A stretch of 64,000 bases of DNA from Candidatus Thorarchaeota archaeon (lineage in GTDB: Archaea; Asgardarchaeota; Thorarchaeia; Thorarchaeales; Thorarchaeaceae), in NCBI GenBank assembly GCA_029858305.1, contig JAOUFI010000004.1:23862-87861 (forward strand). Reading direction: 5' to 3'. Positions 2,460 to 45,732 of the stretch are shown here, piece by piece (the first letter of the stretch is position 1; each line of letters begins with the position of its first letter). Under the pieces are notes generated by a model. That model saw only the letters and a program-made list of their open reading frames with translations. It was not told the DNA's origin and did not search any database. A program made the translations under genes and the position numbers.

Positions 2460-2484
2460 TATAAGGCAGACTTGTGCCAGTGTA

Positions 2485-18176: not shown

Positions 18177-19961
18177 ATGAATGCATTAGTATTCTTATTA
18201 ATTTCAATTATTGCACATGCAATCCCAATACCGTTTGCACGGCAATATATGATACCAAGCAGACTAATCAAATGGTTGCCCTTGCGTCTTGTGTGGGGAA
18301 CTGTCGCTTGGGTAATCATATGTCTTCTATTCGGAGCAGCGCTACCTTGGGCAATTCTTGGACTTGTAATGAGCCTAGGAGCACTCATGATGATCACAAG
18401 CGGATTCCGCCCGGGTGGTCATATTGAGAATATGTTAGAGGGCATCAAAGTACCCTTTGCCTGTATTGGTTTAATCATACTCATAACAGTACCAGCATTT
18501 GGGAGTGTTATTAGCTGGACATCGGGGGTTGCAAACGCCGAATATTTTGATGCCATGATTTCAGAAACTGACGAGCCACTTTTCACAAGTCCAATCCCTG
18601 ATAGAATGGTTCGTCTTGTCACAGAAGAATATGCAAAATATGTAGCAAGCCAACACCTATCACCTTTTGGATCAAACAACTTAGTTGCTGCAGCACATAT
18701 CACTCTTAGAAACGGAACTTTGGTCTGGGTGTGTACGATAGTATCGACAAATGTACTTGCTGAGAACTATATCAAGGGATTCATCGTTGTGGATGCAAAT
18801 GATCCCCAGACAGTTGAACCCCTTGCAATCACCTCTACGAGCATTCCTGTCGGGGAGGGTCTATTCTGGGACAAGAACATTCAGTTCGGGAACTATTTGA
18901 ATGACATAACATCAATGTATGAATATGCATATCCAACATGGGATCCCAGTGGAAATTTGGTCTACGTCCAGACACGGACACCACTTGGCTTTGATTTCGT
19001 AGAAGCCGCAATCGGACCAATTGTCTATGCAGAGAATGGTTCAGTGTTCGCGTATGATACCATTGCAGATACACCATCGTGGATCACACAAGCTTATGCA
19101 GAGGAATGGCTGGAGAGGCAAATAACACGATGGGGAAGTTTCCGAAGAGGTAGTGGATTTGACCTATTTGCTGGAGGATTATTGTGGGTTATTCCACCCT
19201 CAAACGACAGGCTCGAGATTACAGAGGATACAAGATATATCTTGAATCCAGACACCGGTCGAATTGAGGCGTTCATAGCAGTCCATCCAGTGAACTCACC
19301 AAGTACTCTTGCAGGAGTATTCCGTGCAACACAGAACGAGGTGTACTATCATGACCTAAGTGGATTGGGATATGTTAGTGGTGAGGCTGCAGTCGCCAAT
19401 GTTGTCGGGGACATAGGTCAACCAGCAAGCGGTTACTACTATGGAGCTATGCCGCTTCTCTATCCAGTCACTATTAATTCCACACTCACAAAGTGGACAT
19501 GGTACACGCCAATCTATTGGGCTGATACCTACTACGACGAAGATCTTGGAGAGTATATCTCATCCAATATGAGGCTTCATGCACTTGGCTTAGTCGATGC
19601 CTCAAATATCGATCGATTCGTTTGGTTGCCCTTGGGAGGAACTACATCTGGTGAGGACCTAGTATACGATGTCAGAAGTGATTATCTAGGCTTGTTTGGG
19701 GGTGTCATTGAGGAGGAGCCATCCGATAGCTTCAGCATCACAGCTAATGTTACAGCAAAGACCACATTTGTCCAGAATGGTCAGCAGCACGTTCTACTAC
19801 AGACGAACAATGCCACCTATGAATTCCTAGAAGGTGCTCAAGCTTGGATGAACACAACAGATTGGTATACACTCCTATTTATCGACGTAGACGATAATTT
19901 CACCGCAACGATTCTACAAGTAGGAGATGTCTATCGAATAATCGCTATCGTCAAAAACTAG
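18177..19961 (+). CDS. Large membrane-anchored protein of unknown function
   Basis: 594 aa; ~4 N-terminal TM segments then a ~430-aa soluble, probably extracytoplasmic domain rich in aromatic residues. Confidence 0.7.
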   Translation: MNALVFLLISIIAHAIPIPFARQYMIPSRLIKWLPLRLVWGTVAWVIICLLFGAALPWAILGLVMSLGALMMITSGFRPGGHIENMLEGIKVPFACIGLIILITVPAFGSVISWTSGVANAEYFDAMISETDEPLFTSPIPDRMVRLVTEEYAKYVASQHLSPFGSNNLVAAAHITLRNGTLVWVCTIVSTNVLAENYIKGFIVVDANDPQTVEPLAITSTSIPVGEGLFWDKNIQFGNYLNDITSMYEYAYPTWDPSGNLVYVQTRTPLGFDFVEAAIGPIVYAENGSVFAYDTIADTPSWITQAYAEEWLERQITRWGSFRRGSGFDLFAGGLLWVIPPSNDRLEITEDTRYILNPDTGRIEAFIAVHPVNSPSTLAGVFRATQNEVYYHDLSGLGYVSGEAAVANVVGDIGQPASGYYYGAMPLLYPVTINSTLTKWTWYTPIYWADTYYDEDLGEYISSNMRLHALGLVDASNIDRFVWLPLGGTTSGEDLVYDVRSDYLGLFGGVIEEEPSDSFSITANVTAKTTFVQNGQQHVLLQTNNATYEFLEGAQAWMNTTDWYTLLFIDVDDNFTATILQVGDVYRIIAIVKN

Positions 19962-20176: not shown

Positions 20177-21346
20177 TTATTTTGGAAAGAATTCCTTGTA
20201 TACCTCGCGCTGGATAAGGAACCGAAGGATTTCTGCGGTTCCGCCACCGATGGTCATTAGGCGTGCATCCCTCAAGAAACGTTCAACTGGATAATCGGTT
20301 GTATAACCCATGCCACCTAGTATCTGAAGAGCATCATTTGTAATCTGAATAGCTGCTTCAGTTGTGTATAGTTTCGCAATGGATGCGGCTTTTGTAATCT
20401 TCTCGCCACGATCATACATTCTTGCAGCTGTTAGGGTGAGTGCACGACCGGCTTCGAGTTTCATAGCCATATCAGCAATCTTGAAGCTCACACCCTCAAA
20501 CGCACTGATAGGTCTTCCAAATTGATGACGCTCGGTAGAATACCTCACAGCAATCTCATATGGTGTTCTACCATATCCTATTGCCTCGCCTGCTATTGCA
20601 GTCCGCTCGGAATCTAATTCATCCATTAGAATGTGAAAACCCATACCAGGATTACCAAGGAGCATATCACCAGGAACTCTAACATCTTCGAGTTTCAACC
20701 AAGACACACGGGCTGATTTCATCCCAAGTAGATCGTGGTCTTGCACAACGCTAAAACCATCACTCTTTGTATCAATAATGAAGGCAGACATTCCATCCTT
20801 TGCTTTCAAATTAGGATCTGTGATAGCAAAAGCACACATAAAATCAGCTTGGCTTCCATTCGTTATGAATCGCTTTTCACCATTAAGTATCCAGTCATCA
20901 CCATCTTTCTCTGCACGGGTCTTCATCCCAGCAGTATCTGAACCGACATCTGGTTCTGTGATCCCAATACATCCAATCTTATCCCCTGCGACAACTGGCT
21001 CTAGATACTTCTTCTTTTGCTCAGGAGTTCCAAACCTTGCAACAGGCATTCCATAAAGTGTAGTGGACGCCATTCTAGCCATATCGAGACCGCCATTTGT
21101 CGCAGAAATCTCCTCAGCAACTATTATCTCGTAGGATAAGCCTCTGTTTGTTCCGCCCACGGTTTTGTCATGGTGAACGCCCATGTATCCAGATTTGCCA
21201 ATTTTCCTCAACAATTCCCGAGGGTACGGACCTTTGTCAATCTCATCTGCAATTGGAGCAATTTCCTTATCGCAGAAAGCACGAACTTCTCTACGAAAAT
21301 TAATCTCATCCTCAGTCCAAAGTGCATTTGATAGATACTCAGCCAT
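20177..21346 (-). CDS. Acyl-CoA dehydrogenase
   Basis: IGCIGITEPDVGSDTAGMKTRAEKDGDDWILNGEKRFITNGSQADF, RHQFGRPISAFEGV, QILGGMGYTTDYPVERFLRDARLMTIGGGTAEILRFLIQRE. Confidence 0.96.
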   Translation of the reverse strand: MAEYLSNALWTEDEINFRREVRAFCDKEIAPIADEIDKGPYPRELLRKIGKSGYMGVHHDKTVGGTNRGLSYEIIVAEEISATNGGLDMARMASTTLYGMPVARFGTPEQKKKYLEPVVAGDKIGCIGITEPDVGSDTAGMKTRAEKDGDDWILNGEKRFITNGSQADFMCAFAITDPNLKAKDGMSAFIIDTKSDGFSVVQDHDLLGMKSARVSWLKLEDVRVPGDMLLGNPGMGFHILMDELDSERTAIAGEAIGYGRTPYEIAVRYSTERHQFGRPISAFEGVSFKIADMAMKLEAGRALTLTAARMYDRGEKITKAASIAKLYTTEAAIQITNDALQILGGMGYTTDYPVERFLRDARLMTIGGGTAEILRFLIQREVYKEFFPK

Positions 21347-21417
21347 TATTGAAACCCGCCTGTTTCGTGGAGCACTTGCTTAAATTAGTAACTGACTTTT
21401 GAAAAGGGTATATAAAA

Positions 21418-21750
21418 TCAGGGAAGTAAGCGGAAACGAAACCGCTCCTCTCCATCCAAGGTAATCTCAACTAGAGCTCCTATCTGAGGTTCAAGCCGCT
21501 CCTCATTATAACCAAGACACAACACCACAGCGCCTTGATCTAGTTCTACTAATGCCATCTTCAGAGGTGTATCAAATCCATCAGGAGGCAATTGTAGGGT
21601 TGTGTGACTGAGGATTGATCCTTTATTATCAATCTCAGATGTTGACATTCTTCCAGCTATTTTGCCACAATATGGGCATACCTCACGTGGAGGCACAATT
21701 GTTCGTTTACATTGACCACAGTGAGATGCTTGAATCTTCATCCTCCACAT
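21418..21750 (-). CDS. DUF35 / Zn-ribbon OB-fold acyl-CoA-binding protein
   Basis: Rubredoxin-like Zn ribbon CGQCKRTIVPPREVCPYCG followed by an OB-like region; typical thiolase/HMGCS/aldolase partner. Confidence 0.88.
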   Translation of the reverse strand: MWRMKIQASHCGQCKRTIVPPREVCPYCGKIAGRMSTSEIDNKGSILSHTTLQLPPDGFDTPLKMALVELDQGAVVLCLGYNEERLEPQIGALVEITLDGEERFRFRLLP

Positions 21751-21816
21751 CGAAATATCTGAAGCCAGACTCTTTGAAAAGACTTCCGCCTTTAAAAGTG
21801 GGAATCTTCTCGCAAG

Positions 21817-24800
21817 TTATTTTTCTGGCTCTAAGAATGACTCCAACAGACTGATTATTTCTTTCTTAGAGAGTCTTCTCAATTCTCTTGGACTAGCTGT
21901 GCTTTTGATGTCATCAGGAAGCAGCTCCAACAGCACTTTCTTATCAAGCTTCGAGAGATCCTCTAGTCTTAAAGCGACATCAGGCATTTCTGCAGGGATT
22001 GAATCAGGTAGGACTTCAGGTAATGGCTCTTCAGCGGGAGTATAGGATTCAAGAAGTGATCGAACCTCTTTCTTAGACATTCTTTTTACATCCTCTTCAG
22101 GAAGAGCATCTCGAATTTCTGGGGGTAATCTGTCAAGAAGTTCCTTCTTCGTCAATGATTTGTCTATCACAATCTCTGATTCAGGCAGGATTTCTGGCTC
22201 TGAAACAGGCTCAGGTATGACATCGATAGATTCAGCTTCAATAGATTCGATATATTCTTCATCTGAAGGAACTGCCTCATCGATTTGTGGTTCTTGGGCA
22301 GAAACGGAGGGTTGAAGATCCAGCTCAGTTGCAATATCTGTTTCTGCCTCAATCACTTCGATTTGACCTTCCTCTGTAGGTAGAACTTCTTCTTGCATTG
22401 ATTCAGGTACATCAGGCTCCTCAGACAATGCGATGCTGTCTTCAGGGATACTAATGGACTTAGAATCTTCAATAGGCTCAAGCTCAGTTTCTTGAAGAGT
22501 AACTTCTGGTTCGTATACATCCATTTCAGAAGAAGCAACAGGTGCGGCAGCCTCTGCTTCAGGTTCAACGACCTCGGCAGCTACAACATCCTCGACCAAA
22601 GCACCTTCTTCTGCGGTCTCAGCGAGCAATTCAGTTTCTAAAAGCTCCCTTGCATCAGGTCCAAGTCCATCACTGATAGGCGCGACATCAGTTTCTATGA
22701 TCTCGGGTTCCGCAGGAGTTGTAATCGTCGGTTCAGGTATTCCAAAATCAGAAACCTCAATTTCTCCAACTCCAATGCTGACCCCTCCTCGTCTTCTTCG
22801 TGAGGCGATTAAAGCTACTCCAATAAGAACTATGCCAGCGCCACCACCAATTAACATCAGCGTCATTGTATCTAGAGTGAAACCTGGAACAGCAATCCAT
22901 TCTACTTCTACACTCAAACTAGCTGGGTCAAAAGCCGATACACCATACAGGCTATCTGTGATGCTTCCGATTGTAAATGCGTAATTGCCAGCGAGAGTCT
23001 TCGTGATACTGATGGTCCAATAACCACCTACAGAATTGTAGGTCATGGAAACACTCTCACCTGTGAGAAACACTTCACCATTAGTGAATGGTGTGTCATC
23101 AAATTCGTAGGCGAGAGTTGCACGAATCTCAGTAGCTAAACCTGCATCTTGAGAGAGCGATGTTGCTGTAAGTGTGATTGCCTTGATTCTATCCCAGATG
23201 ATTGTTATATCGCCAACTGATTGAACAAAGTTATTGATTTCTCCCAATGACGCAGAGATTATGCTGTATGTTGTACTTCCCACAGTGCTCTGCGTAACCG
23301 ATGCAACAAATAATCCACCGGACGGGATACAGGAGATATCACCTGTCATACTGACTGAGATGCCAGTAGGGATGATTATACCAGCGGTTTCAAGTCTAGC
23401 ACCCCATTGAATATCTACGGATTCACCTACACCCACTCTGCCATCATCAGATGATACTGAGTAGAATTCAATTCTATCCCAATACACAGTGACCTCATTC
23501 GAATCCATATTATATTCACTAATACCGTGGTCTGTGGCATTACAAAGCGTAAGATCGTCAAATGTAATAGCAATGTATGAACCAAGAGTGACATAGGTTT
23601 CCCAAATGCCAGATCCGACGTGAGTCAAAGAATAACCTGCTATGTTGAATTCACCCGCGACGACAGGCGAATCATCGTACTCAAAGTGAATCTCAACAGA
23701 TATTCTAACATTATCGCCAGGATCATGATACAGCTCATCAGCGAGTACTGAAACAATCAGTACCCTGTCCCAGATGCAGTAAGTGATATCATTGGAGAGA
23801 ATGGCTGTTATGTTGAATGCATCAAAAGTCGCTGAAAGAACCGTGTACCATTGTATTTGAGGCGAAGTGTACACGAAATTGGTATTGTTTAAAGTAAGGA
23901 CACCATCAAACGGAGTGTTGTCGAATGCATAGGTGGCACTGACAACTATACCAGTGGCATTTGCACCTACATTGACATGTGCGTCAGTAGGATCAGTTAT
24001 GATAATATTTAGAGCGTCCCAAATCACCTGTTGAACAGAGGTTGATTCAAACCACTCTGTCAGACCATAAGTCGATTCACTTGCAGATGCTACATCAAAC
24101 CAAGCCACGGAAGGACTGGTTGAAGTTTCTTGCCATCTCCAATATAGACCTAAAGCATCCCAGACCAGAGTTCTGGAACCATTGAGGTCTAGTATCAATC
24201 CACTCTGGATTGTAAAATCATCATACTCATACCTGGCTCTCCACCAGACTTCACAGTAGGAGTTGATATCGATTCGACCATCGACAACACCAGCCTCATA
24301 GATCTCTATCCTATCAGTGATGAACGTAGCAATCAAGCTTGTCGTGTAGTATAGGTCAGTTCCTCCAGATCCACTTCCCTGAACAACAATCTTGAATGTG
24401 TAATTGTTTAATCCAATTGTTGCAGGAGAGCCAATGCTTGAAATACTGAAACTTCCAGCAGATAGGTCTCCACTCCATGTTTCAACACCATCTCGTATTA
24501 TCCAAACATCTGTTTCGTTTGCTAGAGGACTGTGGCTTGATCCATAGTATGTTACAGAACCAGATCCAATGAGATCTGCAGTATTGATGTTTCCACGGTC
24601 ATCAGAGAGACTTGGTGAGGTGGAGTAATCAAGCCTGGTTTCAAAGTTCCAATTAGTTTCATAGTAGTTTGACGCAGAATCAATTCCATCACTGACGAAT
24701 TGAAGTATGTCAGTGTCTATCAAGACATCATGATTCCAACCAATTTTGATGTACCAAGTGATTGTCAGTGTATTACCTGCACCAGTCGCATAGGACATGA

Positions 24801-27800
24801 CATCAGCAATTACTATTGAGCTACCAGATTCGAGCGAGAATGTATCTGTGGCAGTAGTGTATCTAATAGTCCAATATGGGGTGATTTGGTCATCAGAATA
24901 GAGGGTTAATTCGACATAGCTTATGTCAGTGTATCCATCAAGATCACTCACTGAAGTTGTGATAATGTAGAAACGATACCGTGCGTAGAGATAGTTTGTG
25001 TCGTCGCCATTTGTCAACACAGGACTTGAATCGTTGACTGGAATCTCGTTTGGAGCTACAGACCATGTAACCTGTTGTGTGGTAGTGGTGAACGCAGTGA
25101 TATCATATGTAGACTCACTTGACACCAGACTCGCATTGTAGAAATATGTCACGTCGGTATTTGTATCAACAAATTGTGAAACGTTTCCATCAACAAATGA
25201 GTGCCACCAAGTTCCATTCCGATCGATTACAAGCTGATAGGTTGTGCAAACTGCACTATTATACTCAAATGTAACTGATAGAGTGAAGTTTGCTTGATGA
25301 CCATTTACCGATGATGCATCATCGACTCCAATGACAATGACTAGTCTGTCCCAGATGACATTCTGCGACTGAGTATTCTGGTCCACAACAGTGAGCCCAT
25401 GGATATTACCACTTCCTGCAACTAGGTTGTACGTGTTCATAACGACTATGGATTCAGAGTCAGAGAATCTCCAGAGACCTGCACCTTGATGAGATGCGGA
25501 GATTCCGTTCACTGTAATTGTACCATCAGTAACGGGAGAGTCATCATAGTCGTAGTAGAGAATCACATCAATATCAACACTGTCACCAATATTGACATGA
25601 TTATCACTCACAGAGTATGACTGGACTTGTATTCTATCCCAGATGACACTTACATTATTGCCTGAGAGATTTAATGAAGTAATACCAAAGTTGGATTCGG
25701 AGCTTGAGTTCACATAGTAGATCCAAGATCCTACTGAAGCTTGACTAACTATCAATTCAAATCGTCCATCGCTAAAGTCCCAGTTCATTGAAGATCCAGC
25801 TAGAGTCACTGTGTCTCCTGAGCCTAGGAACGAGCTGTCATAAGCAAGCCATAATGTGACTCTTATCTCAACATAGGCTCCAACATCGACCCTTGTGGCA
25901 TTAGCCAAAGTTGTTTGAACGACAATCTGATCCCAGATGACATCCTGAGTCATAGCATTCTGGTTAACCTGGGTAAGTCCGTGAATGCCACCGGAATAGG
26001 CAACAGTATCGTAAGTGAACAATTGTACAGATGATTTTGTGTCAGTAAATCTCCAAGTCCCACTTCCTTGATGTGTAGCTGCAATTCCGTTTATTGTAAC
26101 TGATCCGTTAATGACTGGGCTAGAATCGTACTCGTATAAGAGTTCTACATCAATTGTGGCAGCGTCATTGATATCTATTCGTGGATCCAAAGCCGCATAT
26201 GATTGAACAGCAATCTGATCAGTTATGTATGTTGATTGTGTTGTGCTGCTGAGAAGATCAGTTCCTCCACTTCCAGCGGCCTCAATAACAGCTTTAATTG
26301 TCAAAGTGTCTTGACCGACTTCATCATCAGCGTAGACTGTCAGACTAAACTGTCCAGAGGTGAGTGAAAGGTCACTCCATGGGCCAATAGATGTTCCATA
26401 CTCTGAACTTGACACCCAGACATCGGTTTCATTAGCAAGGGGATAGTTGTCGACAGAACCTAGGAAGATGAGTGTTCCTGAAACAGTAAAAGCTCCATCA
26501 AGAGGACCACGATTTTCTGTTCCTGAACCGTCGTCAATTGTTAGACCAGTAATCTCTAGACGGGTTTCAACATCCCAATCTGATTCATAGAAGTCCTCAT
26601 CTCCGATTTTTCCATCATGGACATATTGTTTCATGTCCACATCGGTCAGATCTAAATGATCCCAACCAATTTTGATGTACCAAGTAACATCCAAATCATT
26701 TCCAAAGCCAACTGCAAATGATGAGGTGCTTAGAGTGATGTAAGTACCGCCCAACTCAACTGTGAATATGTCACCTGAAACAGTATATCTAACCGTCCAG
26801 ACAGGAGTTGTTCTAGAGTTGTCATAGAGTGTCAATTCTATGTAGTCGATATCGTTGTATCCATCTGCATCTGATACACTGCTAGTGATGATATAGTAAT
26901 TATAACGAGCATACAAGTTGTCAGTATCATCAGGATTTGATAAATTAGGTGCAGAATCGTTTACTGGAGCAGAGTTGGGCGCTGCAGACCATACAACCTG
27001 CTGACTGTTCGTTGAGAAAGAGAGCACACCATATGTGGATTCTGATGTCACTACAAATACGGTGTAGGTGTAAGAGTCGTCAATGTTTGCATCAACAAAT
27101 GATGATTTGTTTGTATCAGTAAATGAGTACCACCAGGTCCCATTCCTATGAATAGCAATCTGGTAGGATGTGCATACAGTATCATCGTAGTCAAAGAGGA
27201 CTGCAAGAGTGAAGTTTGCTTGGACTCCATTAAGTGGAGTAGAATCATCAACACCAATCATGATAACGAGTTGGTCCCAAATCATGTAGGTTTCATCATT
27301 CGAACTTATCGTGGTTATTCCGAAACCATCTCCAGAAACACTGAGAACTGTATAACCCCACTTGACAGCTGTTCCATCTCCATCAAAGTCAGTGTTGTTT
27401 AAAGTGAATGTGCCATCAAACACCGATCCATCATAATCATAGATGGCTGACACAATGATACCTGAAGCATTGGCATTGATGCTTTGTCTGTTGTCTGTGG
27501 GTCCAGTGATGGTTATAGTAATTGAGTCCCAGATCATGAAGGTCTCATCGTTCGAACTTATGGTCGTAATACCGTAGGAGTCTCCAGAAACACTGAGCAC
27601 TGTGTAACCCCACTTGACAGCTGTTCCATCTCCATCAAAATCAGTATTATTCAGAGTAAAGGTGCCATCAAATTCCGCTCCATCATAATCATAAACTGCG
27701 GATACAATTATTCCAGATGCATTAACGTTTAGATTTTGCCTATTGTCTGTGGGTCCAACGATGGAGATTGTAATTGAGTCCCAGATCATGAAAGTTTCAT

Positions 27801-30800
27801 CATTCGAACTTATCGTGGTTATTCCGAAACCATCTCCAGAAACACTGAGGACCGTATAGCCCCACTTGACAGCTGTTCCATCTCCATCAAAGTCAGTGTT
27901 GTTTAAGGTGAAAGATCCATCAAACACTGACCCATCATAATCATAAACTGCGGATACAATGATGCCTGAAGCATTGGTATTTAGATTCTGTCTGTTATCT
28001 GTTGGTCCAGTGATGATTATAGTAATTGAGTCCCAGATCATGAAGGTTTCGTCATTGGAACTTATGGTAGTTATGCCATAGGAGTCACCTGAAATGCTGA
28101 GAACTGTGTAGCCCCACTTGACAGCTGTGCCATCACCATCATAATCTGTATTGTTTAAAGTGAAGGTGCCGTCAAAGGGTGTACTATCATAATCATAGAC
28201 TGCTGTCACTATAATGCCTGAGGCATTTGCATTCAGGTTCTGTCTATTGTCTGTGGGTCCAGTGATAGTGATAGTCACTGAATCCCAAATCATGAAGGTC
28301 TCATCATTGGAGCTTATTGTGGTTATACCGAAACCATCACCTGAGACGCTGAGGATTGTATAGCCCCACTTGACAGCTGTCCCATCTCCATCAAAGTCAG
28401 TATTGTTCAGAGTAAAGGTGCCATCAAAGGTTGCACCATCATAGTCATAGACTGCTGATATTATGATTCCAGATGCGTTAGCATTCAGGTTCTGTCTGTT
28501 ATCTGTGGGTCCAGTGATGGTGATTGTAATTGAGTCCCAGATCATGAAGGTCTCATCGTTCGAACTTATGGTCGTTATACCGAAACCATCACCTGAAACG
28601 CTGAGGACTGTGTAGCCCCACTTGACAGCTGTCCCATCTCCATCAAAGTCAGTATTGTTCAGAGTAAAGGTGCCATCAAAGGTTGCACCATCATAGTCAT
28701 AGACTGCGGATACAATTATTCCAGATGCGTTTGCATTCAGGTTCTGTCTGTTATCTGTAGGACCAGCAATTGTAATAGTAATTGAGTCCCAGATCATGAA
28801 TGTCTCATCGTTCGAACTTATCGTCGTTATATCGAATGAGTCTCCAAAAACACTGAGAACAGTGTAGCCCCATTTTACAGCTGTGCCATCCCCATCAAAG
28901 TCTGTGTTGTTTAGAATAAACGTGCCATCAAAAACTGTGCCGTCATAGTCATAAATTGCGGATACAATTATTCCAGATGCGTTTGCATTCAGGTTCTGTC
29001 TGTTGTCTGTAGGTCCAGTAATGGTAATGGTCACTGAGTCCCAGATCATGAATGTCTCATCGTTCAAACTTATTGTGGTTATTCCATAAGAGTCTCCAGA
29101 AACGCTGAGAACTGTGTAACCCCACTTGACAGCTGTTCCATCTCCATCAAAGTCAGTATTGTTTAGAGTAAAGATACCATCAAACGCTACACCATCATAG
29201 TCATAGACAGCTGATACAATGATTCCAGATGCGTTAGCGTTGAGGTTCTGCCTGTTGTCGGTAGGACCAACAATGGTGATTGTAATTGAGTCCCAGATCA
29301 TAAAGGTCTCATCGTTCGAACTTATTGTGGTTATTCCAAAACTGTCTCCGGAAACACTGAGAACAGTGTAGCCCCACTTGACAGCTGTTCCATCTCCGTC
29401 AAAGTCTGTGTTATTTAGAGTGAAAGTTCCATCAAACGCTGCACCATCATAGTCATAGGCTGCTGATATTATGATTCCAGATGCGTTTGCATTCAGGTTT
29501 TGTCTGTTGTCTGTAGGTCCAGTGATGGTAATGGTCACTGAGTCCCAGATCATGAATGTCTCATCGTTTGAACTTATGGTCGTTATACCATAGGAGTCTC
29601 CGGAAACGCTGAGAACTGTGTAACCCCATTTGACAGCTGTGCCATCTCCATCGAAGTCTGTGTTGTTCAAGATAAATGATCCCTCAAAAGATGTACCATC
29701 ATAATCATAGACTGCTGTCACTACAATACCTGAAGCATTAGCGTTAAGGTTCTGTCTGTTGTTGGTAGGACCAGCGATTGTAATAGTAATTGAGTCCCAG
29801 ATCATAAAGGTCTCATCGTTCGAACTTATGGTCGTTATACCATAGGAGTCTCCGGAAACGCTGAGAACTGTGTAACCCCATTTGACAGCTGTGCCATCTC
29901 CGTCAAAGTCTGTATTGTTTAGAATGAATGATCCGTCAAAAGATGTACCATCATAATCATAGACTGCTGTCACTACAATACCTGAAGCATTAGCGTTAAG
30001 GTTCTGTCTATTATCTGTGGGTCCAGTAAAGGTGATTGTAATTGAGTCCCAGATCATGAAAGTTTCATCATTCGAGCTTATTGTGGTTATACCGAAACTA
30101 TCTCCAGAAACACTGAGAACTGTATAGCCCCACTTGACAGCTGTCCCATCTCCATCAAAGTCTGTATTGTTAAGGGCGAAAGTACCATCAAACACTACGC
30201 CATCATAGTCATAGACAGCTGATACAATGATTCCAGATGCGTTAGCGTTCAGGTTCTGCCTGTTGTCAGTGGGTCCAGTAAAGGTGATTGCAATTGAGTC
30301 CCAGATCATGAAAGTTTCATCATTCGAACTTATTGTGGTTATACCGAAACTATCTCCAGAAACACTGAGAACTGTATAGCCCCACTTGACAGCTGTCCCA
30401 TCTCCATCAAAGTCAGTGTTGTTTAAAGTGAATATGCCATCAAACACGGCTCCATCGTAGTCATAGACTGCTGATACTATGATACCTGAAGCATTGGCAT
30501 TCAAGTTCTGCCGGTTGTCTGTTGGACCAACAATTGCTATTGTCAGAGAGTCCCATATATGGTATGTATAATCATTAGTACTAATCACAGTGATTCCATG
30601 TGTTCCACCACCAATCGAGGAAACTGTGTAGTACCATCTGACAGCAGTTCCATCTCCATCAAAGTCTGTGTTGTTTAGGGTGTAAGTTCCATCAAATGCT
30701 GTACCATCATAATCATAGACTCCACTAACGATAATACCTGTGGCGTTTGCATTCAGGTTCTGTCTGTTGTCTGTGGGTCCAGTGATTGTGATAGTTACTG

Positions 30801-33354
30801 AGTCCCAAATGCAATAAGTGGCATCATTTATGCCAATAAGTGCCACACCATGAGTCCCTCCAGAAGCTGAAGAAACTGTGTAACCTCGTTTTCCTATATC
30901 TCCATAATCAAAGGTTGTATCATTAAGAGTTAGCAATCCATCAAAAGAGGAATCATCGTAATCATAGATTGCAGAAACGATAATGCCTGTTGCGTTCGCC
31001 CCAATATTGATTCTCTGATCTGTTGGATCAGTTATGGTGATAATTAGTCTGTCTGCAATGTAGGTATCAGTAGCACTGGCTGCATGATAAAGATCAGTAC
31101 CACCTGAGCCTGCACCTTCTTCAACCACTTTAACTGTGTAGGTGTCCTCACCGATGACATCATCAGCATAACAAGTTACATCGAATACACCAGAAGTGAG
31201 ATCTGTGTCACTCCATGGACCTATATTGGTGCCATATTCAGATGTAGACACCCAGATGTCTACTGCTGTGGAAGAAGGATAAGCGTTTGTGGACGTATAA
31301 TAGATGACCGTTCCAGTTAGTGAAAATGAACTGTCAAGATTGCCTCTATCTCCAGTGCCAGAGCCATCATCTACACTAAAAGGTCCTGTATAGTCCAGAC
31401 GTGTTTCCACATCCCAAGTGATAGAAGGACTACCATATGAGTCAGCGTCATTCAAATTTTGAGTGTCGACCACATAGCATTTAGCTACTAAGTCTGAAGA
31501 ATCAGGGAAGTCCCAATCAACTGTGAAATAGAAAGTTGCATCTATATCATTACCACTTTCTATCGCAGTTGAACTTACTGCGTTTAGAGAAACAACCGTT
31601 CCAATATCATAAACCTCGGTGAAGGCGTTTGTATCCTCATCATATCTAAATCTACAATACTCTGTTGTTCCACTAGTATCCCAAAGTCCTATTTCCAGAT
31701 AGTCAATGTCACCAAATCCATTCTGGTCTGAAACATGTGATGTCACTTGATATTCTTGATATTGGGCATACATATTATCTGTATCAGAGGGATTATCGAG
31801 AGTGGGTGCTTGATCATTTACTGGTGCATAACTGACAGTCCAAGAATGAATGAGTACAGTATCTACTTCCCATGTGCTCTGGGTTGTATCCCCAGTTTCA
31901 GTACCTCCTAGAAAACGAATCTCCAAGGCACTGCTTGTGAGATAACTGCTGACACTTACATTGTTCCACTGATCAGGTGTAAGATCTGGAAGGATAGTGG
32001 ACCAGGTACCATTCCAGACATCTATCTTGATGTCCTCAGAGGGCCATCCACCTCCCGTGACGGGATAGATACAGAGCTCTTCATTTTGTTCGTCAAAATC
32101 AGCTGTGGTCCATCCAACTTCCAAATCCAATTCATAGTTGGCAGAACCTACGGTCCACACATGGAGGAGAACTCCTTCAACTTGCCAGGTATCTTGAGCT
32201 GTTGAGTCGTCACTTGTGTCTGTGAATCGAATCTCAAAGGTGGAACTAGTCAAATATGAGGTCACAGATACATTATTCCATCCTGTTGCGATGTCAGAAA
32301 TCACGTTCTGCCACACTGAGCCATCCCAAACATCAACTCTCAGTGCTTCGGTGCCTTGTGTACCACCATAAATGCAGACATATTCATTGGTTTCATCGTA
32401 ATCAGCACCTGTCCATCCGACCTCAAGGTCGAGATCGTAGTTATTAGTGCCAGCTTGATAGACGTTTAGATAAGCCGCATCTACCCAGTTATTGACTGGA
32501 GCACCGAGTCCTTTTTGCATGGTGAACCTAATACGACATGCATTTATCTCTGAAACAGAATCTAGACCTGATATTGCACCACTGTTATACCAAGCACCAG
32601 TTGGGTCTACAAAAGTGCCGCTAGCGTCTGCCGTTCCTTCACCAGTCCAATCTAACTCCCAAAAGATATCATCATCATCAGATTGTCCACAGTACACATA
32701 AAGAATGACTGTAAAGACCCCAGCCGTTCCACTTGTGGCAGCAAAATCATACCATCCAGAAACAGCACCATTTGAGGCTGTGGAGATATAACTTGTAGGA
32801 TAGTTCTGTGTATCCAAATATGGCGATATTCCTGTTTGAATCCAAGTTACAGGTGTTGGAGCTGTGTCAATATACAGGTTTTCATCAATTGTAGGAGTAC
32901 CTGTATTTGCCTCTGTAAGGGTATCGAAGGTTGAATCTATATCCTGCATCTCAGCAAAATCACTGTGAGTACCCACATCTACAGGAGCATGAAGATTAGA
33001 TTGCTGATCAACATAATCTTCGAGGTTATAGCCCGCAGAACCAGTATCGGATTCTCTCATCTGATTGTAGTTTGAACCGAAGTCTTGAAGGTCTGAGAAG
33101 ACATTGTGAGTGCCGATATCAGAAGGACTATGAAAGTCAGACAAGGTGTCAATGAAATCCTCAAAATTGTCGCCAATTCCTGAAGGCACATTTTCTGAGG
33201 AATTTGGATACAAGAGTGAACTAGTCAAGGAATCGTCATAATTAGTTGATGGAATAAATAAGCTGAATCCCATGAGAGATACAAAGAGAGATAGTAGAAG
33301 CACCTTTCTATTCATATTCTGGACTCCTTCATACTGTCGACTGTTACATTGCAT
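21817..33354 (-). CDS. Giant repeat-containing cell-surface protein (likely start Met at ~33315) with C-terminal TM and cytoplasmic tail
   Basis: 3845-aa ORF; signal peptide MNRKVLLLSLFVSLMGFSLF; Ig-like-length units separated by IWDxI; TM TMTLMLIGGGAGIVLIGVALIASRRRR; acidic tail with duplicated KKELL..LPxxI..SKKEVxSLLES. Confidence 0.93.
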   Translation of the reverse strand: MQCNSRQYEGVQNMNRKVLLLSLFVSLMGFSLFIPSTNYDDSLTSSLLYPNSSENVPSGIGDNFEDFIDTLSDFHSPSDIGTHNVFSDLQDFGSNYNQMRESDTGSAGYNLEDYVDQQSNLHAPVDVGTHSDFAEMQDIDSTFDTLTEANTGTPTIDENLYIDTAPTPVTWIQTGISPYLDTQNYPTSYISTASNGAVSGWYDFAATSGTAGVFTVILYVYCGQSDDDDIFWELDWTGEGTADASGTFVDPTGAWYNSGAISGLDSVSEINACRIRFTMQKGLGAPVNNWVDAAYLNVYQAGTNNYDLDLEVGWTGADYDETNEYVCIYGGTQGTEALRVDVWDGSVWQNVISDIATGWNNVSVTSYLTSSTFEIRFTDTSDDSTAQDTWQVEGVLLHVWTVGSANYELDLEVGWTTADFDEQNEELCIYPVTGGGWPSEDIKIDVWNGTWSTILPDLTPDQWNNVSVSSYLTSSALEIRFLGGTETGDTTQSTWEVDTVLIHSWTVSYAPVNDQAPTLDNPSDTDNMYAQYQEYQVTSHVSDQNGFGDIDYLEIGLWDTSGTTEYCRFRYDEDTNAFTEVYDIGTVVSLNAVSSTAIESGNDIDATFYFTVDWDFPDSSDLVAKCYVVDTQNLNDADSYGSPSITWDVETRLDYTGPFSVDDGSGTGDRGNLDSSFSLTGTVIYYTSTNAYPSSTAVDIWVSTSEYGTNIGPWSDTDLTSGVFDVTCYADDVIGEDTYTVKVVEEGAGSGGTDLYHAASATDTYIADRLIITITDPTDQRINIGANATGIIVSAIYDYDDSSFDGLLTLNDTTFDYGDIGKRGYTVSSASGGTHGVALIGINDATYCIWDSVTITITGPTDNRQNLNANATGIIVSGVYDYDGTAFDGTYTLNNTDFDGDGTAVRWYYTVSSIGGGTHGITVISTNDYTYHIWDSLTIAIVGPTDNRQNLNANASGIIVSAVYDYDGAVFDGIFTLNNTDFDGDGTAVKWGYTVLSVSGDSFGITTISSNDETFMIWDSIAITFTGPTDNRQNLNANASGIIVSAVYDYDGVVFDGTFALNNTDFDGDGTAVKWGYTVLSVSGDSFGITTISSNDETFMIWDSITITFTGPTDNRQNLNANASGIVVTAVYDYDGTSFDGSFILNNTDFDGDGTAVKWGYTVLSVSGDSYGITTISSNDETFMIWDSITITIAGPTNNRQNLNANASGIVVTAVYDYDGTSFEGSFILNNTDFDGDGTAVKWGYTVLSVSGDSYGITTISSNDETFMIWDSVTITITGPTDNRQNLNANASGIIISAAYDYDGAAFDGTFTLNNTDFDGDGTAVKWGYTVLSVSGDSFGITTISSNDETFMIWDSITITIVGPTDNRQNLNANASGIIVSAVYDYDGVAFDGIFTLNNTDFDGDGTAVKWGYTVLSVSGDSYGITTISLNDETFMIWDSVTITITGPTDNRQNLNANASGIIVSAIYDYDGTVFDGTFILNNTDFDGDGTAVKWGYTVLSVFGDSFDITTISSNDETFMIWDSITITIAGPTDNRQNLNANASGIIVSAVYDYDGATFDGTFTLNNTDFDGDGTAVKWGYTVLSVSGDGFGITTISSNDETFMIWDSITITITGPTDNRQNLNANASGIIISAVYDYDGATFDGTFTLNNTDFDGDGTAVKWGYTILSVSGDGFGITTISSNDETFMIWDSVTITITGPTDNRQNLNANASGIIVTAVYDYDSTPFDGTFTLNNTDYDGDGTAVKWGYTVLSISGDSYGITTISSNDETFMIWDSITIIITGPTDNRQNLNTNASGIIVSAVYDYDGSVFDGSFTLNNTDFDGDGTAVKWGYTVLSVSGDGFGITTISSNDETFMIWDSITISIVGPTDNRQNLNVNASGIIVSAVYDYDGAEFDGTFTLNNTDFDGDGTAVKWGYTVLSVSGDSYGITTISSNDETFMIWDSITITITGPTDNRQSINANASGIIVSAIYDYDGSVFDGTFTLNNTDFDGDGTAVKWGYTVLSVSGDGFGITTISSNDETYMIWDQLVIMIGVDDSTPLNGVQANFTLAVLFDYDDTVCTSYQIAIHRNGTWWYSFTDTNKSSFVDANIDDSYTYTVFVVTSESTYGVLSFSTNSQQVVWSAAPNSAPVNDSAPNLSNPDDTDNLYARYNYYIITSSVSDADGYNDIDYIELTLYDNSRTTPVWTVRYTVSGDIFTVELGGTYITLSTSSFAVGFGNDLDVTWYIKIGWDHLDLTDVDMKQYVHDGKIGDEDFYESDWDVETRLEITGLTIDDGSGTENRGPLDGAFTVSGTLIFLGSVDNYPLANETDVWVSSSEYGTSIGPWSDLSLTSGQFSLTVYADDEVGQDTLTIKAVIEAAGSGGTDLLSSTTQSTYITDQIAVQSYAALDPRIDINDAATIDVELLYEYDSSPVINGSVTINGIAATHQGSGTWRFTDTKSSVQLFTYDTVAYSGGIHGLTQVNQNAMTQDVIWDQIVVQTTLANATRVDVGAYVEIRVTLWLAYDSSFLGSGDTVTLAGSSMNWDFSDGRFELIVSQASVGSWIYYVNSSSESNFGITSLNLSGNNVSVIWDRIQVQSYSVSDNHVNIGDSVDIDVILYYDYDDSPVTDGTITVNGISASHQGAGLWRFSDSESIVVMNTYNLVAGSGNIHGLTVVDQNTQSQNVIWDRLVIVIGVDDASSVNGHQANFTLSVTFEYNSAVCTTYQLVIDRNGTWWHSFVDGNVSQFVDTNTDVTYFYNASLVSSESTYDITAFTTTTQQVTWSVAPNEIPVNDSSPVLTNGDDTNYLYARYRFYIITTSVSDLDGYTDISYVELTLYSDDQITPYWTIRYTTATDTFSLESGSSIVIADVMSYATGAGNTLTITWYIKIGWNHDVLIDTDILQFVSDGIDSASNYYETNWNFETRLDYSTSPSLSDDRGNINTADLIGSGSVTYYGSSHSPLANETDVWIIRDGVETWSGDLSAGSFSISSIGSPATIGLNNYTFKIVVQGSGSGGTDLYYTTSLIATFITDRIEIYEAGVVDGRIDINSYCEVWWRARYEYDDFTIQSGLILDLNGSRTLVWDALGLYWRWQETSTSPSVAWFDVASASESTYGLTEWFESTSVQQVIWDALNIIITDPTDAHVNVGANATGIVVSATYAFDNTPFDGVLTLNNTNFVYTSPQIQWYTVLSATFDAFNITAILSNDITYCIWDRVLIVSVLADELYHDPGDNVRISVEIHFEYDDSPVVAGEFNIAGYSLTHVGSGIWETYVTLGSYIAITFDDLTLCNATDHGISEYNMDSNEVTVYWDRIEFYSVSSDDGRVGVGESVDIQWGARLETAGIIIPTGISVSMTGDISCIPSGGLFVASVTQSTVGSTTYSIISASLGEINNFVQSVGDITIIWDRIKAITLTATSLSQDAGLATEIRATLAYEFDDTPFTNGEVFLTGESVSMTYNSVGGYWTISITKTLAGNYAFTIGSITDSLYGVSAFDPASLSVEVEWIAVPGFTLDTMTLMLIGGGAGIVLIGVALIASRRRRGGVSIGVGEIEVSDFGIPEPTITTPAEPEIIETDVAPISDGLGPDARELLETELLAETAEEGALVEDVVAAEVVEPEAEAAAPVASSEMDVYEPEVTLQETELEPIEDSKSISIPEDSIALSEEPDVPESMQEEVLPTEEGQIEVIEAETDIATELDLQPSVSAQEPQIDEAVPSDEEYIESIEAESIDVIPEPVSEPEILPESEIVIDKSLTKKELLDRLPPEIRDALPEEDVKRMSKKEVRSLLESYTPAEEPLPEVLPDSIPAEMPDVALRLEDLSKLDKKVLLELLPDDIKSTASPRELRRLSKKEIISLLESFLEPEK
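27270..31050 (-). repeat. Coding tandem array of 15 units, period 252 bp (84 aa), within the giant surface protein
   Basis: Consensus GPTDNRQNLNANASGIIVSAVYDYDGxxFDGTFTLNNTDFDGDGTAVKWGYTVLSVSGDxxGITTISSNDETFMIWDSITIT; 13 units nearly identical. Period checked from gggtcc at 27499 and 27751. Confidence 0.95.
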
Positions 33355-33514
33355 TGCATGACTTCAAGTCAGATTTGTTCTGGACTGCGCAGCAAGCTCA
33401 CTATCGAGCCGTACAGGTGAGTATGCAACTTTACAATCAAATAAGAGAATCTTGGATGAATTGGATTGAAAGATTGTCAAAATAGAACCAAGTAGGTAGA
33501 TAGAGCAGTCTGGG

Positions 33515-34687
33515 TTATCTTCTTTGGAATATACCAACGACAATATTATTCCCAAATCCTCCGATATTGTGCGTAAGCCCAATATTGGGAACATCTACTT
33601 GGAGACCTTTGGGTGCTTCACTCCGCAGTTGCATGACAATATCGCGAATCTGAGCAACTCCTGTGGCTCCAGTTGGATGGCCTCGAGCCTTGATACCTCC
33701 GGTAGTATTTACTGGCATACTCCCTGAAACCTCTGTAAGTCCCTCCCTCACAGCTTTTATCGCCTCTCCTCGATTAACTAATCCAATGTCTTCCATGTTC
33801 ACTAGTTCGAGTATAGAGAATGCATCATGAACTTCGCATACATCAATGTCTTGAGGACCGACCCGGGCCATCTTGAAGGCCTTTTCTGCAGCCACGACAG
33901 TTGCATTCATAGAGGTGAGTGAAAGTCGATGCTGGACTGCGAGATAGTCAGTTCCATGGCCGATTCCGAGCACCCGTATTGCTCTATCTGCAAGACCATG
34001 CTCCTTCACAGCTCTATCGGATGCCACAACCACAGCAGATGCGCCATCACTCGTTGGGCAGCAATCGTATAATGTAAGCGGATCTGCGACTGTCCTTGCT
34101 GTGTTCACCTGTTCAATGGTAATCTCTTTTTGAAAGTGAGCAAGGGGATTCTTCGCACCATTTCGATGAGCCTTTACAGGCACTAGAGAGAGTTCATCCC
34201 GGGTCAGTCCATAATCATGCATGTACCGACGAGCAATCATAGCAGCAAGTGCTGTAGGTGTCGCACCATATCGGGACTCGTTCTCAAAGGACATCATCTT
34301 CGCAAGAATTCTTGATGCTGTCCCTCTATCAACCTCTGACATCTTCTCAACACCAATGACAAGAACAAGGTCCGCCATCCCAGCAGCCACGACTGTAAAC
34401 GCAGCCTCAAATGCACTTGAACCTGAGGAGGGGCCAGTTTCCACTCGCGTAGCTCCTGCAGGAACTAATCCAAGCACATCAACAAGTACGGTAGAGAGAT
34501 GACCTCTACTCACGAACTCATCAGGATTCTGAGTACCCACGAACAGATGGTCAAATTGGGCCCCAATTGTTGAAGAATCCTCCATCGCCTCAAATACGGC
34601 GTTCTTGGCTAGTTCAAGGATTGAATCATCAAGTATGCCAAACTTCGTCATCCCAACACCGATGATGTTGACTGGCTCCAAAGTCAA
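33515..34687 (-). CDS. Thiolase-superfamily protein (SCP2-thiolase / Ltp2-like)
   Basis: VNIIGVGMTKFG, DVCEVHDAFSILELVNMEDIGL, NTTGGIKARGHPTGATGVAQI; nucleophile-Cys region reads VETGPSSGSSAFEAA. Confidence 0.9.
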   Translation of the reverse strand: MTLEPVNIIGVGMTKFGILDDSILELAKNAVFEAMEDSSTIGAQFDHLFVGTQNPDEFVSRGHLSTVLVDVLGLVPAGATRVETGPSSGSSAFEAAFTVVAAGMADLVLVIGVEKMSEVDRGTASRILAKMMSFENESRYGATPTALAAMIARRYMHDYGLTRDELSLVPVKAHRNGAKNPLAHFQKEITIEQVNTARTVADPLTLYDCCPTSDGASAVVVASDRAVKEHGLADRAIRVLGIGHGTDYLAVQHRLSLTSMNATVVAAEKAFKMARVGPQDIDVCEVHDAFSILELVNMEDIGLVNRGEAIKAVREGLTEVSGSMPVNTTGGIKARGHPTGATGVAQIRDIVMQLRSEAPKGLQVDVPNIGLTHNIGGFGNNIVVGIFQRR

Positions 34688-34693
34688 ACACCC

Positions 34694-35218
34694 TCACTCA
34701 ATGAGAACTAGAACATCTGTGGGGTTAACCATGGTTCCCACTTCGACATTCACTTCCTTCACAGTACCTTTGATATCAGTTTTCAACTCATTGAACATCT
34801 TCATTGCCTCAAGTATACAGACAGTCTGACCTGCTTTGACCGTATCACCAATCTTCACGCGTACTTCTGTGATCTTGCCAGGCATAGGAGGATAGATACC
34901 ACCAAGGACTCTCGGTCCAGTCTGAGAAGATGAAGAAGACTTCTTTGCTATTTCCTGTTTTTTAACTCGTTCCCATTCAATTTCATGCTCTTGACCATTT
35001 ATCTCCAGCACAACTGCTTTCCCCGCCCGTTTTAGTACTTTCACTGAATAATCAGAAGTTGTATCATTGACAATCCACGATCCATCTTCAGCTGGAGTTG
35101 GTTTCATGGTAAAACTCTGGTCTGCAACCTTCACGACCAGCAAGCCGCCCTCATCGAGCTTCCTTACCTCTACTTCGAACGGTTTCTCATCAAGTGTTAT
35201 CTTGTATTCTGGACTCAT
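34694..35218 (-). CDS. Biotin carboxyl carrier protein
   Basis: C-terminal biotinyl domain GGIYPPMPGKITEVRVKIGDTVKAGQTVCILEAMKMFNELKTDIKGTVKEVNVEVG (EAMKM). Confidence 0.94.
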   Translation of the reverse strand: MSPEYKITLDEKPFEVEVRKLDEGGLLVVKVADQSFTMKPTPAEDGSWIVNDTTSDYSVKVLKRAGKAVVLEINGQEHEIEWERVKKQEIAKKSSSSSQTGPRVLGGIYPPMPGKITEVRVKIGDTVKAGQTVCILEAMKMFNELKTDIKGTVKEVNVEVGTMVNPTDVLVLIE

Positions 35219-36804
35219 TAAAGTCCCTCCTGGTTGCGTCCCCTCATGACGTCTTTCCTACCAGCGGATCCCCAGGATGTAGTTGACTGTTCCCATTTTC
35301 CTGCTCCATACTCAATTGTTCGCGTAGCAATGAGGTCACTACGACCTGTGTCAGTCCAAACCTCGCCACGAACTGCTGCAGTTCCAATCCCACCTAAGCT
35401 CATCCCATTCATGTGGAGAATAGCAGCAGCAATTGCAACTTCCAGCTCAGCTGTCATCTGACCTGTGATTCTCTTTTGAGCCCTGCGCTTCAAGAAGTCT
35501 ATTGCATATTGTGGGAAAAGAGCATAGGAGACCTCATCACGTGGAATATGTGGAATATCCTTGAGAGCTTCTCGTGCTGCGGGGAGCTCAGGTTCAAGGA
35601 GATCGGCGGGTCGGCATTCAAGTGTCTTCTCATCTCCAATGGCTAATTTCTTGACTTTAGGATCTATCTCTGCGGGAGGGCGTCCATAATAACCACGGAT
35701 ATACTGCTTGACTTCTGTTGGAATCATACTGTATCTTTTTCCAGTCACAACATTGAGCGTCGCCTGTGTCCCAACAATTTGACTAGATGGTGTCACAAGC
35801 GGAGGATACCCAAGTTCAGCTCGGACTCGAGGTACTTCAGCTAGAACTTCATCATATTTGTCTAATGCACCTTGCTCTCGGAGTTGATTATCAAGATTCG
35901 AAAGCATCCCACCAGGAATTTGAAACTCGAGAACTTGTGGATTGACTCCTTGAAGACTACCTTCGTACTGTGTATATTTTCTCCGAATCTTACGGAAATA
36001 ATCTGCAATCTCAGAGAGTTGATTAATACTCAGACCAGTGTCCCGAGGTGTTCCCTTGAGTGCCTCAACAATGGACTCTGTGGCTGGCTGGGAGGTGGCC
36101 ATTGATAATGCAGATATTGCGCAATCTACAACATCAACTCCTGCATCTGCTGCCTTGAGATATGCCATTGCTGCCATCCCGCTCGTGTAGTGAGAGTGAA
36201 GCTGGACAGGAACATCAATCTCTTCCTTGATACCGACTACGAGGTCATATGCGGCCTTGGGTGAGATGAGCCCAGCCATGTCTTTGATACAGATTGAATC
36301 TGCACCTTTTTCGTAGAGTTCCTTGGCCATGGCTACAAACTTGTCATTTGTGTGAAAAGGACTCAACGTGTAACTAATGGCAGCTTGAACATGACTACCC
36401 TCACGCTTCACAAAGTTCATGGCTGCCTCCATATTACGAACATCATTGAGGGCATCAAAGATTCTGAAGATATCGATGCCAACCTTTACTGCTTCAACGA
36501 TGAAAGCCTCTAAGACATCATCAGGAAAGTGTCTATACCCCACTAAATTGCTACCTCTCAACAACATCTGGAATTTTGTCTTGGGCATGGCTTCCTTAAG
36601 CATCTCAACGCGTTCCCAAGGATCCTCATCCAGAAAGCGCATCATCGAGTCAAACGTGGCTCCGCCCCACATCTCAAGCGAGTGATAGCCAACTTTGTCA
36701 ATCTTCTCACAGATTGGAAGCATGTCCTCTGTGCGCATTCTAGTGGCTATAAGGGACTGATGAGCGTCTCTTAGTGTTGTGTCGGTAATCAGGAGTTTCG
36801 TCAT
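35218..36804 (-). CDS. Carboxyltransferase subunit (OadA / PycB / methylmalonyl-CoA 5S-like)
   Basis: ITDTTLRDAHQSLIATRMRTEDMLPICEKID, EMWGGATFDSMMRFLDEDPWERV, SICIKDMAGLISPKAAYDLV, VQLHSHYTSGMA. Confidence 0.95.
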   Translation of the reverse strand: MTKLLITDTTLRDAHQSLIATRMRTEDMLPICEKIDKVGYHSLEMWGGATFDSMMRFLDEDPWERVEMLKEAMPKTKFQMLLRGSNLVGYRHFPDDVLEAFIVEAVKVGIDIFRIFDALNDVRNMEAAMNFVKREGSHVQAAISYTLSPFHTNDKFVAMAKELYEKGADSICIKDMAGLISPKAAYDLVVGIKEEIDVPVQLHSHYTSGMAAMAYLKAADAGVDVVDCAISALSMATSQPATESIVEALKGTPRDTGLSINQLSEIADYFRKIRRKYTQYEGSLQGVNPQVLEFQIPGGMLSNLDNQLREQGALDKYDEVLAEVPRVRAELGYPPLVTPSSQIVGTQATLNVVTGKRYSMIPTEVKQYIRGYYGRPPAEIDPKVKKLAIGDEKTLECRPADLLEPELPAAREALKDIPHIPRDEVSYALFPQYAIDFLKRRAQKRITGQMTAELEVAIAAAILHMNGMSLGGIGTAAVRGEVWTDTGRSDLIATRTIEYGAGKWEQSTTSWGSAGRKDVMRGRNQEGL

Positions 36805-41028: not shown

Positions 41029-42027
41029 ATGCGCAGAGAATCACGGATAATTGCCACGATAGCAGTGATTGCAGTCATCTTGAGTGGAGCGGCGTTCTAC
41101 CTTTACCTGAGTCAAGTTGAGGGAAAAGAAACACTCACAATCTCGACAACGACGAGCCTCTATGATACAGGTCTGCTCGACTTAATCAAAGATACGTACG
41201 AACAGAGAAATCCGAACGTGATTCTTGCATTCATTTCTGCAGGGACTGGAATCGCTATAACTCACGCAAAGAATGGAGACGCAGATATGATTCTAGTACA
41301 CTCACCTTCTCAGGAATTAGCATTCATGCAAGAGGGGTATGGTGTAAATAGAAAGATATTCGCATACAATTACTTCGCTATTGTCGGGGCATCTGCAGAT
41401 GTGGTGGGCATAAATCAGACGGATCCTATAGAAGCCCTTCAAGCAATCTACACATACGGACACGCGCATAATACGAGCCTTTGGGTGAGTCGTGATGATC
41501 TATCTGGCACGAACTCAAAAGAGATAGCTCTGTGGACTGCGGCAGGTTATAATTACACAGAACTCAAGGATGAGTTTTGGTTCATTTCATCAGGGCTTGG
41601 AATGGGTTCCACCCTAAATATAGCAGATGAGCAATCATTGTACACCCTATCAGACATTGGAACATATCTCAAATACAAAGCTGATGGCCTGATAACACTT
41701 GAACAGCTCGTTGCAGAAGGTCAAGATCTTCTCAATGTCTACAGTGGTATAGCTGTTAACAGCATAACTGTAACTAGTATAAAATTCGCATTAGCAATGG
41801 ATTTCATAAAGTGGCTGGTGAATGATACTGCCCAAGCGTTAATTGCAGCCTATGGGGTCGCAGATTATGGCCAAGGATTATTCTTACCGGCGGTAAATAT
41901 AATCAAGGATCAAGCCCCAGCTCAGATTTTTGAATGGATACGCGACTATTCTTTCTTTGATGAGGGCGGTCAACTATATGAATGCCCTCCAGCATGGCGG
42001 TCTGGAGATTTCGGTCTCTACATCTAG
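41029..42027 (+). CDS. tupA: Tungstate ABC transporter substrate-binding protein
   Basis: LTISTTTSLYDTGLLDLIKDTYEQRNPNVILAFISAGTGIAITHAKNGDADMILVHSPSQELAFMQEGYG...FAYNYFAIVG; TupA-like; upstream of permease and ATPase. Confidence 0.9.
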   Translation: MRRESRIIATIAVIAVILSGAAFYLYLSQVEGKETLTISTTTSLYDTGLLDLIKDTYEQRNPNVILAFISAGTGIAITHAKNGDADMILVHSPSQELAFMQEGYGVNRKIFAYNYFAIVGASADVVGINQTDPIEALQAIYTYGHAHNTSLWVSRDDLSGTNSKEIALWTAAGYNYTELKDEFWFISSGLGMGSTLNIADEQSLYTLSDIGTYLKYKADGLITLEQLVAEGQDLLNVYSGIAVNSITVTSIKFALAMDFIKWLVNDTAQALIAAYGVADYGQGLFLPAVNIIKDQAPAQIFEWIRDYSFFDEGGQLYECPPAWRSGDFGLYI

Positions 42028-42054
42028 AAAAAAAAGTAAGGAGTGATGAAGTAA

Positions 42055-45730: not shown

Positions 45731-45732
45731 CC

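Follow-up and report, generated by a model that had tools for sequence, protein, structure and literature searches.

Asgard archaea, including Thorarchaeota, are the group closest to eukaryotes, and how they couple a crowded, S-layer-free surface to an internal cytoskeleton is a question in eukaryote origins. A minus-strand gene in a 64,000-nucleotide stretch of Thorarchaeota DNA (the window) raises this question for a single protein: what does a giant surface protein do with a long acidic tail behind its membrane anchor? The initial annotation had placed the reading frame correctly at 21817-33354 and described a modular giant archaeal surface protein with a cytoplasmic tail, for which a link from the envelope to the cytoplasm was suggested. 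This description has held. The protein belongs to an Asgard archaeon (Thorarchaeota), and its conserved tail contains a module that can be set apart from the rest.

The giant gene and its ectodomain

Read from the upstream ATG, the open reading frame runs from 33354 to 21817 and comprises 3845 codons; all amino acid numbers given here refer to this reading. The start is most likely M14 (window position 33315), because the Shine-Dalgarno sequence GAAGGAG lies directly 5′ of this codon and complete orthologues begin at the equivalent methionine. The coding sequence (21817..33315, minus strand, as are all features of the gene given below) thus encodes 3832 aa. Hydropathy analysis agrees with the proposed signal peptide, very long ectodomain, single C-terminal transmembrane helix (TM) and acidic tail. 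The signal peptide (MNRKVLLLSLFVSLMGFSLFIPS..., 33241..33315) is matched by the orthologue N-termini, and one strong TM is found near the C-terminus; a weaker hydropathy peak at aa 204 (1.48) falls within the ectodomain. A frameshift or assembly artefact that would separate TM and tail is ruled out by intact orthologues of 3638-4027 aa, some from other genera, in the same gene order, together with the synonymous divergence among the repeats described below. Orthologues in this gene order share the layout of signal peptide, ectodomain, TM, acidic tail and a microdomain (MD).

The giant gene stands inside an otherwise metabolic cluster (20177-36804), whose order is conserved across genera. It is preceded by genes for a PYC subunit, a biotin carrier and a thiolase (33515..34687, minus strand), and followed by those for a ChsH2-type zinc ribbon/OB protein (21418..21750, minus strand), the thiolase's usual partner, and an acyl-CoA dehydrogenase; the two immediate neighbours were assigned by Pfam and synteny. 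This order holds in L074, L075 and, in another genus, L076, within the limits of each contig, and is also seen in the partial contigs L077, L078 and L089. Elsewhere in the window, a 594-aa membrane protein without a Pfam match (18177-19961) keeps the same order in those of the examined relatives whose contigs extend that far. Genes for a substrate-binding protein and an ABC transporter adjoin molybdopterin-biosynthesis genes (41029-47444), and this transporter probably serves tungstate/molybdate uptake.

The beta-rich ectodomain spans about 3450 residues (aa ~45-3486). Its N-terminal region (aa 45-504, 31843..33222) is conserved in L074 and variable in L075 and L076. It is followed by the first copy of a B module (aa 505-766, 31057..31842), 16 beta-rich A modules in tandem (aa 767-2122, 26989..31056), the second B module (aa 2123-2377, 26224..26988), four A modules (aa 2378-2764, 25063..26223), the third B module (aa 2765-3012, 24319..25062), and five membrane-proximal A modules (aa 3013-3486, 22897..24318). 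A modules were delimited by an HMM domain map, supported in the 16-module stretch by TRF, and B copies by identity comparison. The three interspersed B modules of about 250 aa each share 33-51% identity, copy 1 being 51% identical to copy 2 and 33% to copy 3. By an HMM trained on the repeats, the window protein has 25 A modules and its complete orthologues have 25-27.

Within the 16-module stretch lie 14 consecutive, near-identical 84-aa repeats with DxDGDG motifs, which TRF reports as 14 copies of 252 bp at 27274-30807. Pairwise comparison of these repeats gave a median dS of ~1.2, a dN of 0.065 and a dN/dS of ~0.05, with codon position identities of 90% (first), 93% (second) and 59% (third). 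The array is therefore truly translated and constrained, not the product of an assembly collapse, and it is old as DNA and constant as protein. The orthologue centre consists of different units of 96-98 aa with ~21-40% identity to the window centre, whereas L075 and the window protein share 46-91% identity across aa 2001-3500. The central array (27274-30807) appears to have been replaced with the module count kept at 25-27; judged from these alignments, the stalk would be renewed and its size kept. As the Ca-type DxDGDG motif occurs in the window version only and is absent from the orthologues, Ca binding was rejected as a general feature.

No credible relative of the ectodomain was found in Pfam, NCBIfam or among PDB sequences, and neither Pfam nor NCBIfam revealed a recognised S-layer or adhesin domain. 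Matches to Pfam CsrA and NCBIfam HFX_2341/CsrA proved to be repeat artefacts, far below curated cut-offs or with no passing stretches. Among 226 genomes of the phylum, no A modules were detected outside this Thorarchaeota family. The 57 N-glycosylation sequons compare with 48.9 +/- 5.9 in shuffled sequences, so that an enrichment is not clear. In the structure prediction that the initial annotation had recommended, AlphaFold returned a beta-rich ectodomain model of low confidence (pLDDT 64), for which no fold match in the PDB reached an E under 0.1, and it rendered the MDs of the HEAT protein described below as short helices. We therefore call the ectodomain beta-rich and make no claim of an Ig-like fold; because the model is poor, the designation as a stalk is based on repeats and composition.

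A microdomain at the end of the cytoplasmic tail

The TM (TMTLMLIGGGAGIVLIGVALIASRRRR, aa 3496-3522, 22789..22869) is followed by RRRR and a tail of 323 aa with a charge of -66 (21820..22788), both assigned from hydropathy or composition and by comparison with orthologues. The tail consists of 20% Glu, contains no Asn, and has a juxtamembrane DFGxxEP motif that is retained in several orthologues. All orthologues (L074-L078, L089) possess TM, acidic tail and MD, with tail lengths of 164-324 aa and net charges of -44 to -79. The acidic linker is probably flexible. Two copies of the MD, a module of ~35 aa with the pattern TKxELLxxLPxxIxExxSxExLKxLSKxELxxLxE, stand at the tail end. MD1 (TKKELLDRLPPEIRDALPEEDVKRMSKKEVRSLLE, aa 3735-3769, 22048..22152) and MD2 (DKKVLLELLPDDIKSTASPRELRRLSKKEIISLLE, aa 3804-3838, 21841..21945), the latter seven residues from the C-terminus, match the profile with E 3.9e-15 and 3.0e-12, respectively.

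In the genome from which the window stems, a 30-sequence profile yields six matches in three proteins, the next match having an E of 0.96. The carriers are the window giant (two copies), a 2501-aa giant with seven predicted TMs (L036, one copy) and a HEAT protein (L037, three copies). The HMM search across Asgard archaea that had been advised with the first description located the MD in this Thorarchaeota family in 46 of 47 genomes, as against none of 181 other Asgard genomes. Between orthologues, the MD is 54-69% identical, versus 37-47% for the tail linker. All 19 distinct surface-protein tails close with it, leaving 4-22 residues to the C-terminus. It sits under different ectodomains and is a transferable unit. 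Its location is predicted to be cytoplasmic in three settings: behind TM and RRRR in single-pass proteins, after seven TMs, and in a protein without signal peptide or TM. In the L036-type giants, the loops show a positive-inside alternation that leaves the C-terminus inside, and the same holds for L086. The RRRR behind the TM and the MD at the inner end of a 7-TM giant both argue against a tail outside the cell.

Pfam contains no family that matches the MD, and the best PDB match of the profile is a designed repeat protein hit in fragments, with none spanning the whole module. Sub-cut-off Pfam similarities to a UBM-type ubiquitin-binding motif (best E 0.064, 5 of 30 MDs), SAP (best E 0.009, 3 of 30) and DEK_C (best E 0.02, 1 of 30) were rejected. 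Since the UBM match stays below the cut-off and Thorarchaeota have been reported to be without true ubiquitin (PMC9192718), ubiquitin binding is unlikely. The open-access literature yielded no description of the MD, the HEAT-MD protein or the window giant.

Other giants illustrate the variety of such tails. The L036 protein (L036:3597-11102, contig C119 of the window's genome) has an FG-GAP-/invasin-like ectodomain and seven predicted TMs, whose loops follow the positive-inside rule, and ends in a cytoplasmic tail with the MD. It is resembled by proteins in L086 and L029, and its outline is like that of adhesion GPCRs in topology only. In another genus, two single-TM giants (L084:2056-9390 and L084:10960-17784) carry an HHH_5 helix-hairpin-helix in the cytoplasmic tail ahead of the MD (E 2.9e-12 and 8.8e-10); one of them directly follows a thiolase gene, in the place that the window giant takes in its own cluster, and has a different ectodomain. 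Two related giants (genomes G005 and G009; L147, L150) have a tail segment of 52-62 aa that is 77-90% identical to MD3 of the HEAT protein and is a captured copy of that protein's last MD. Divergent MD-like tails occur in the giants of L139 and L140. A different helical tail of ~110 aa is found in L138, L145 and L148, with L146 cut by the contig end. The L138 protein (L138:28-19866) is a 6612-aa giant with 57 A modules, whose conserved helical cytoplasmic tail of this other type is also assigned to L145, L146 and L148. For comparison, a count of huge Asgard proteins lists three above 5000 aa in Thorarchaeota (PMC11573180).

The initial annotation had also stated that such proteins usually end right after the anchor. 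This applies to some Thorarchaeota giants (L143, L144 and L151 have no tail). Yet tails are common in the lineage, since further giants possess conserved cytoplasmic tails of other kinds. In some family genomes (e.g. G008), A-module giants carry a tail of another type or no tail at all, so MD docking is not obligatory.

A HEAT-repeat protein with the same microdomain

The HEAT protein comprises ~370-540 aa, with N-terminal HEAT repeats and three to four MDs at the C-terminus, and has no signal peptide and no TM. The HEAT assignment is based on Pfam (HEAT_2, 44.7 bits versus a cut-off of 27.7) and on PDB fold matches to alphaRep/HEAT. AlphaFold models the HEAT part with a pLDDT of ~90, the linkers as disordered, and each MD as about four short helices (pLDDT ~77-82). 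The protein is single-copy in 44 of the 47 family genomes, and the rest of the phylum shows weak HEAT similarity only. A scan of GTDB genomes returned 33 full-length relatives, the records being labelled Thorarchaeota with the exception of one Lokiarchaeota and two 'archaeon' entries. In all 33, MD1 and MD2 are separated by a Lys/Arg-rich linker with a charge of +9 to +18. The HEAT gene and the giant genes are not neighbours. Among the 33 HEAT loci, genes for a divergent Rce1-like membrane protease (31), an NfeD-domain protein (28) and a Band_7 protein (26) recur, and a VWA protein is also encoded nearby. In L092 (7351-8931), for example, SPFH/Band_7 and NfeD-domain genes lie beside the HEAT-MD gene and the Rce1-like protease in a conserved arrangement.

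To avoid circularity when scoring surface-protein tails, we built MD profiles from the HEAT copies only. The HEAT MD2 profile assigned 21.5 bits to the window tail and up to 36.7 bits to other surface tails. As the maximum among 3900 shuffled tails was 7.9 bits, a mere effect of composition was rejected. Tails score weakly with the HEAT MD1 profile and the MD3 profile lends no support, so the link between tail and HEAT MDs rests mainly on HEAT MD2. Charges differ between the two groups: surface-protein MDs are near neutral, with a mean of -1.4, as opposed to -5 to -6.5 for the acidic HEAT MDs, a difference that would fit an unequal pairing.

Docking model, alternatives and known systems

The sharing of the MD with a cytoplasmic HEAT protein suggests a lineage-specific link from the surface to the interior. 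We propose a model, to which we give about an even chance, in which giant surface proteins dock through the MD on a cytoplasmic HEAT adaptor, the window giant being single-pass and stalk-like with a docking tail. By its sequence, the giant is held outside the cell by a signal peptide, ~25 A modules interspersed with three B modules, and a single TM, and inside, the acidic linker presents one or two helical 35-aa MDs at the extreme C-terminus. The MDs, assisted by charge complementarity between acidic tails and the basic HEAT linker, may then join the tails to the HEAT protein, either directly or through a shared partner. One HEAT adaptor per genome might thus cluster or anchor several giants from within, conceivably where SPFH/NfeD proteins, whose genes lie next to the HEAT gene, would organise a patch of the membrane. 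The envelope-to-cytoplasm link proposed earlier is consistent with the shared MD; adhesion, signalling and cytoskeletal roles of the giant are guesses to which this support does not extend.

One may ask whether the tail has such a function at all. The protein could be an S-layer-like or stalk protein with an inert, low-complexity acidic tail, as the compositionally simple linker, the variable length (164-324 aa) and the existence of giants without a tail might indicate. However, conservation within the tail is highest at its MD ends, and these are met again in membrane contexts unrelated to this one. Since they also score far above shuffles and are conserved above the linker, we regard an inert tail as very unlikely. 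An archaeosortase-type sorting signal at the C-terminus (PGF, TM, Arg cluster), with removal of the tail, is also hardly credible. Although VPGFTLDTMTLM...RRRR resembles this order, some orthologues have SGF or APF in place of PGF, 164-324 aa follow the Arg cluster (323 in the window protein), and the NCBIfam PGF-CTERM model gives no match. The best genome match of an exosortase model (E 0.035) is below threshold, albeit in a weak test with a genome that is 89% complete and a Haloferax control that was also negative.

Other alternatives accept a functional MD. A shared domain may reflect a shared third partner, e.g. a cytoskeletal or membrane-remodelling protein, of which the HEAT protein and the tails would be parallel clients that do not bind each other. 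A shared, cytoplasmic and transferable module fits this idea equally well; yet no candidate partner emerged in our analysis, and the opposite linker charges point, if weakly, to a contact of the tail with the HEAT protein. Charge complementarity is generic, and the charge statistics of related sequences are not independent. We consider parallel clients a lesser possibility. Alternatively, the MD could be a biogenesis or quality-control tag that is read, at insertion or turnover of the giants, by the HEAT protein with the Rce1-like protease, NfeD and SPFH/Band_7 proteins, with no lasting link. The neighbourhood of the HEAT gene (31, 28 and 26 of the 33 loci, as given above) and the invariable position of the surface-protein MD at the extreme C-terminus are tag-like. 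Synteny is weak evidence, however, because HEAT loci also keep many unrelated neighbours. Moreover, a tag reader would not need three to four MDs of its own, and some giants have no MD, which makes a tag rather unlikely.

With docking on the HEAT adaptor, a loose idea about an acidic tail becomes a concrete pair to test, namely the 35-aa domain of the giant tails and the one conserved HEAT protein per genome; both are short enough for expression and binding tests without a Thorarchaeota culture. More tentatively, unrelated giant ectodomains (single-pass and 7-TM), a common MD and one HEAT adaptor may form a dedicated receptor-adaptor system of Thorarchaeota that has no known homologues and would be the archaeal parallel, independent in origin, to the linkage of eukaryotic adhesion receptors to the cell interior.

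With archaeal S-layer and large C-terminally anchored proteins, the window giant shares the signal peptide, a long repeated ectodomain with sequons, and a C-terminal TM, but it is far larger, its ectodomain matches neither an S-layer nor an adhesin domain of Pfam, and it continues into an acidic tail (164-324 aa among orthologues) with a conserved module. In a cultured Lokiarchaeon, no ordered S-layer was seen and many surface proteins stand on a single membrane (PMC9834061). Bacterial Ca-stabilised Ig-like stalk adhesins likewise consist of tandem near-identical beta-rich modules, and DxDGDG resembles Ca-binding loops. Unlike them, the giant matches no known adhesin module, lacks the Ca-type motif in its orthologues, and has a TM anchor and a proposed cytoplasmic docking tail. 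Integrin/talin and cadherin/catenin are comparable only in how they would work, with a large ectodomain, one TM and a tail module shared with a helical-repeat cytoplasmic protein; no homology was seen, and the known families searched include none that the MD resembles. The HEAT-MD protein resembles HEAT-repeat scaffolds in its N-terminal repeats, by Pfam and by fold, and adds to them a C-terminal array of three to four MDs and a conserved basic linker, a combination seen in Thorarchaeota only. With its signal peptide, ectodomain, TM and C-terminal MD, the window giant belongs to what we define here as the Thorarchaeota MD surface-protein group.
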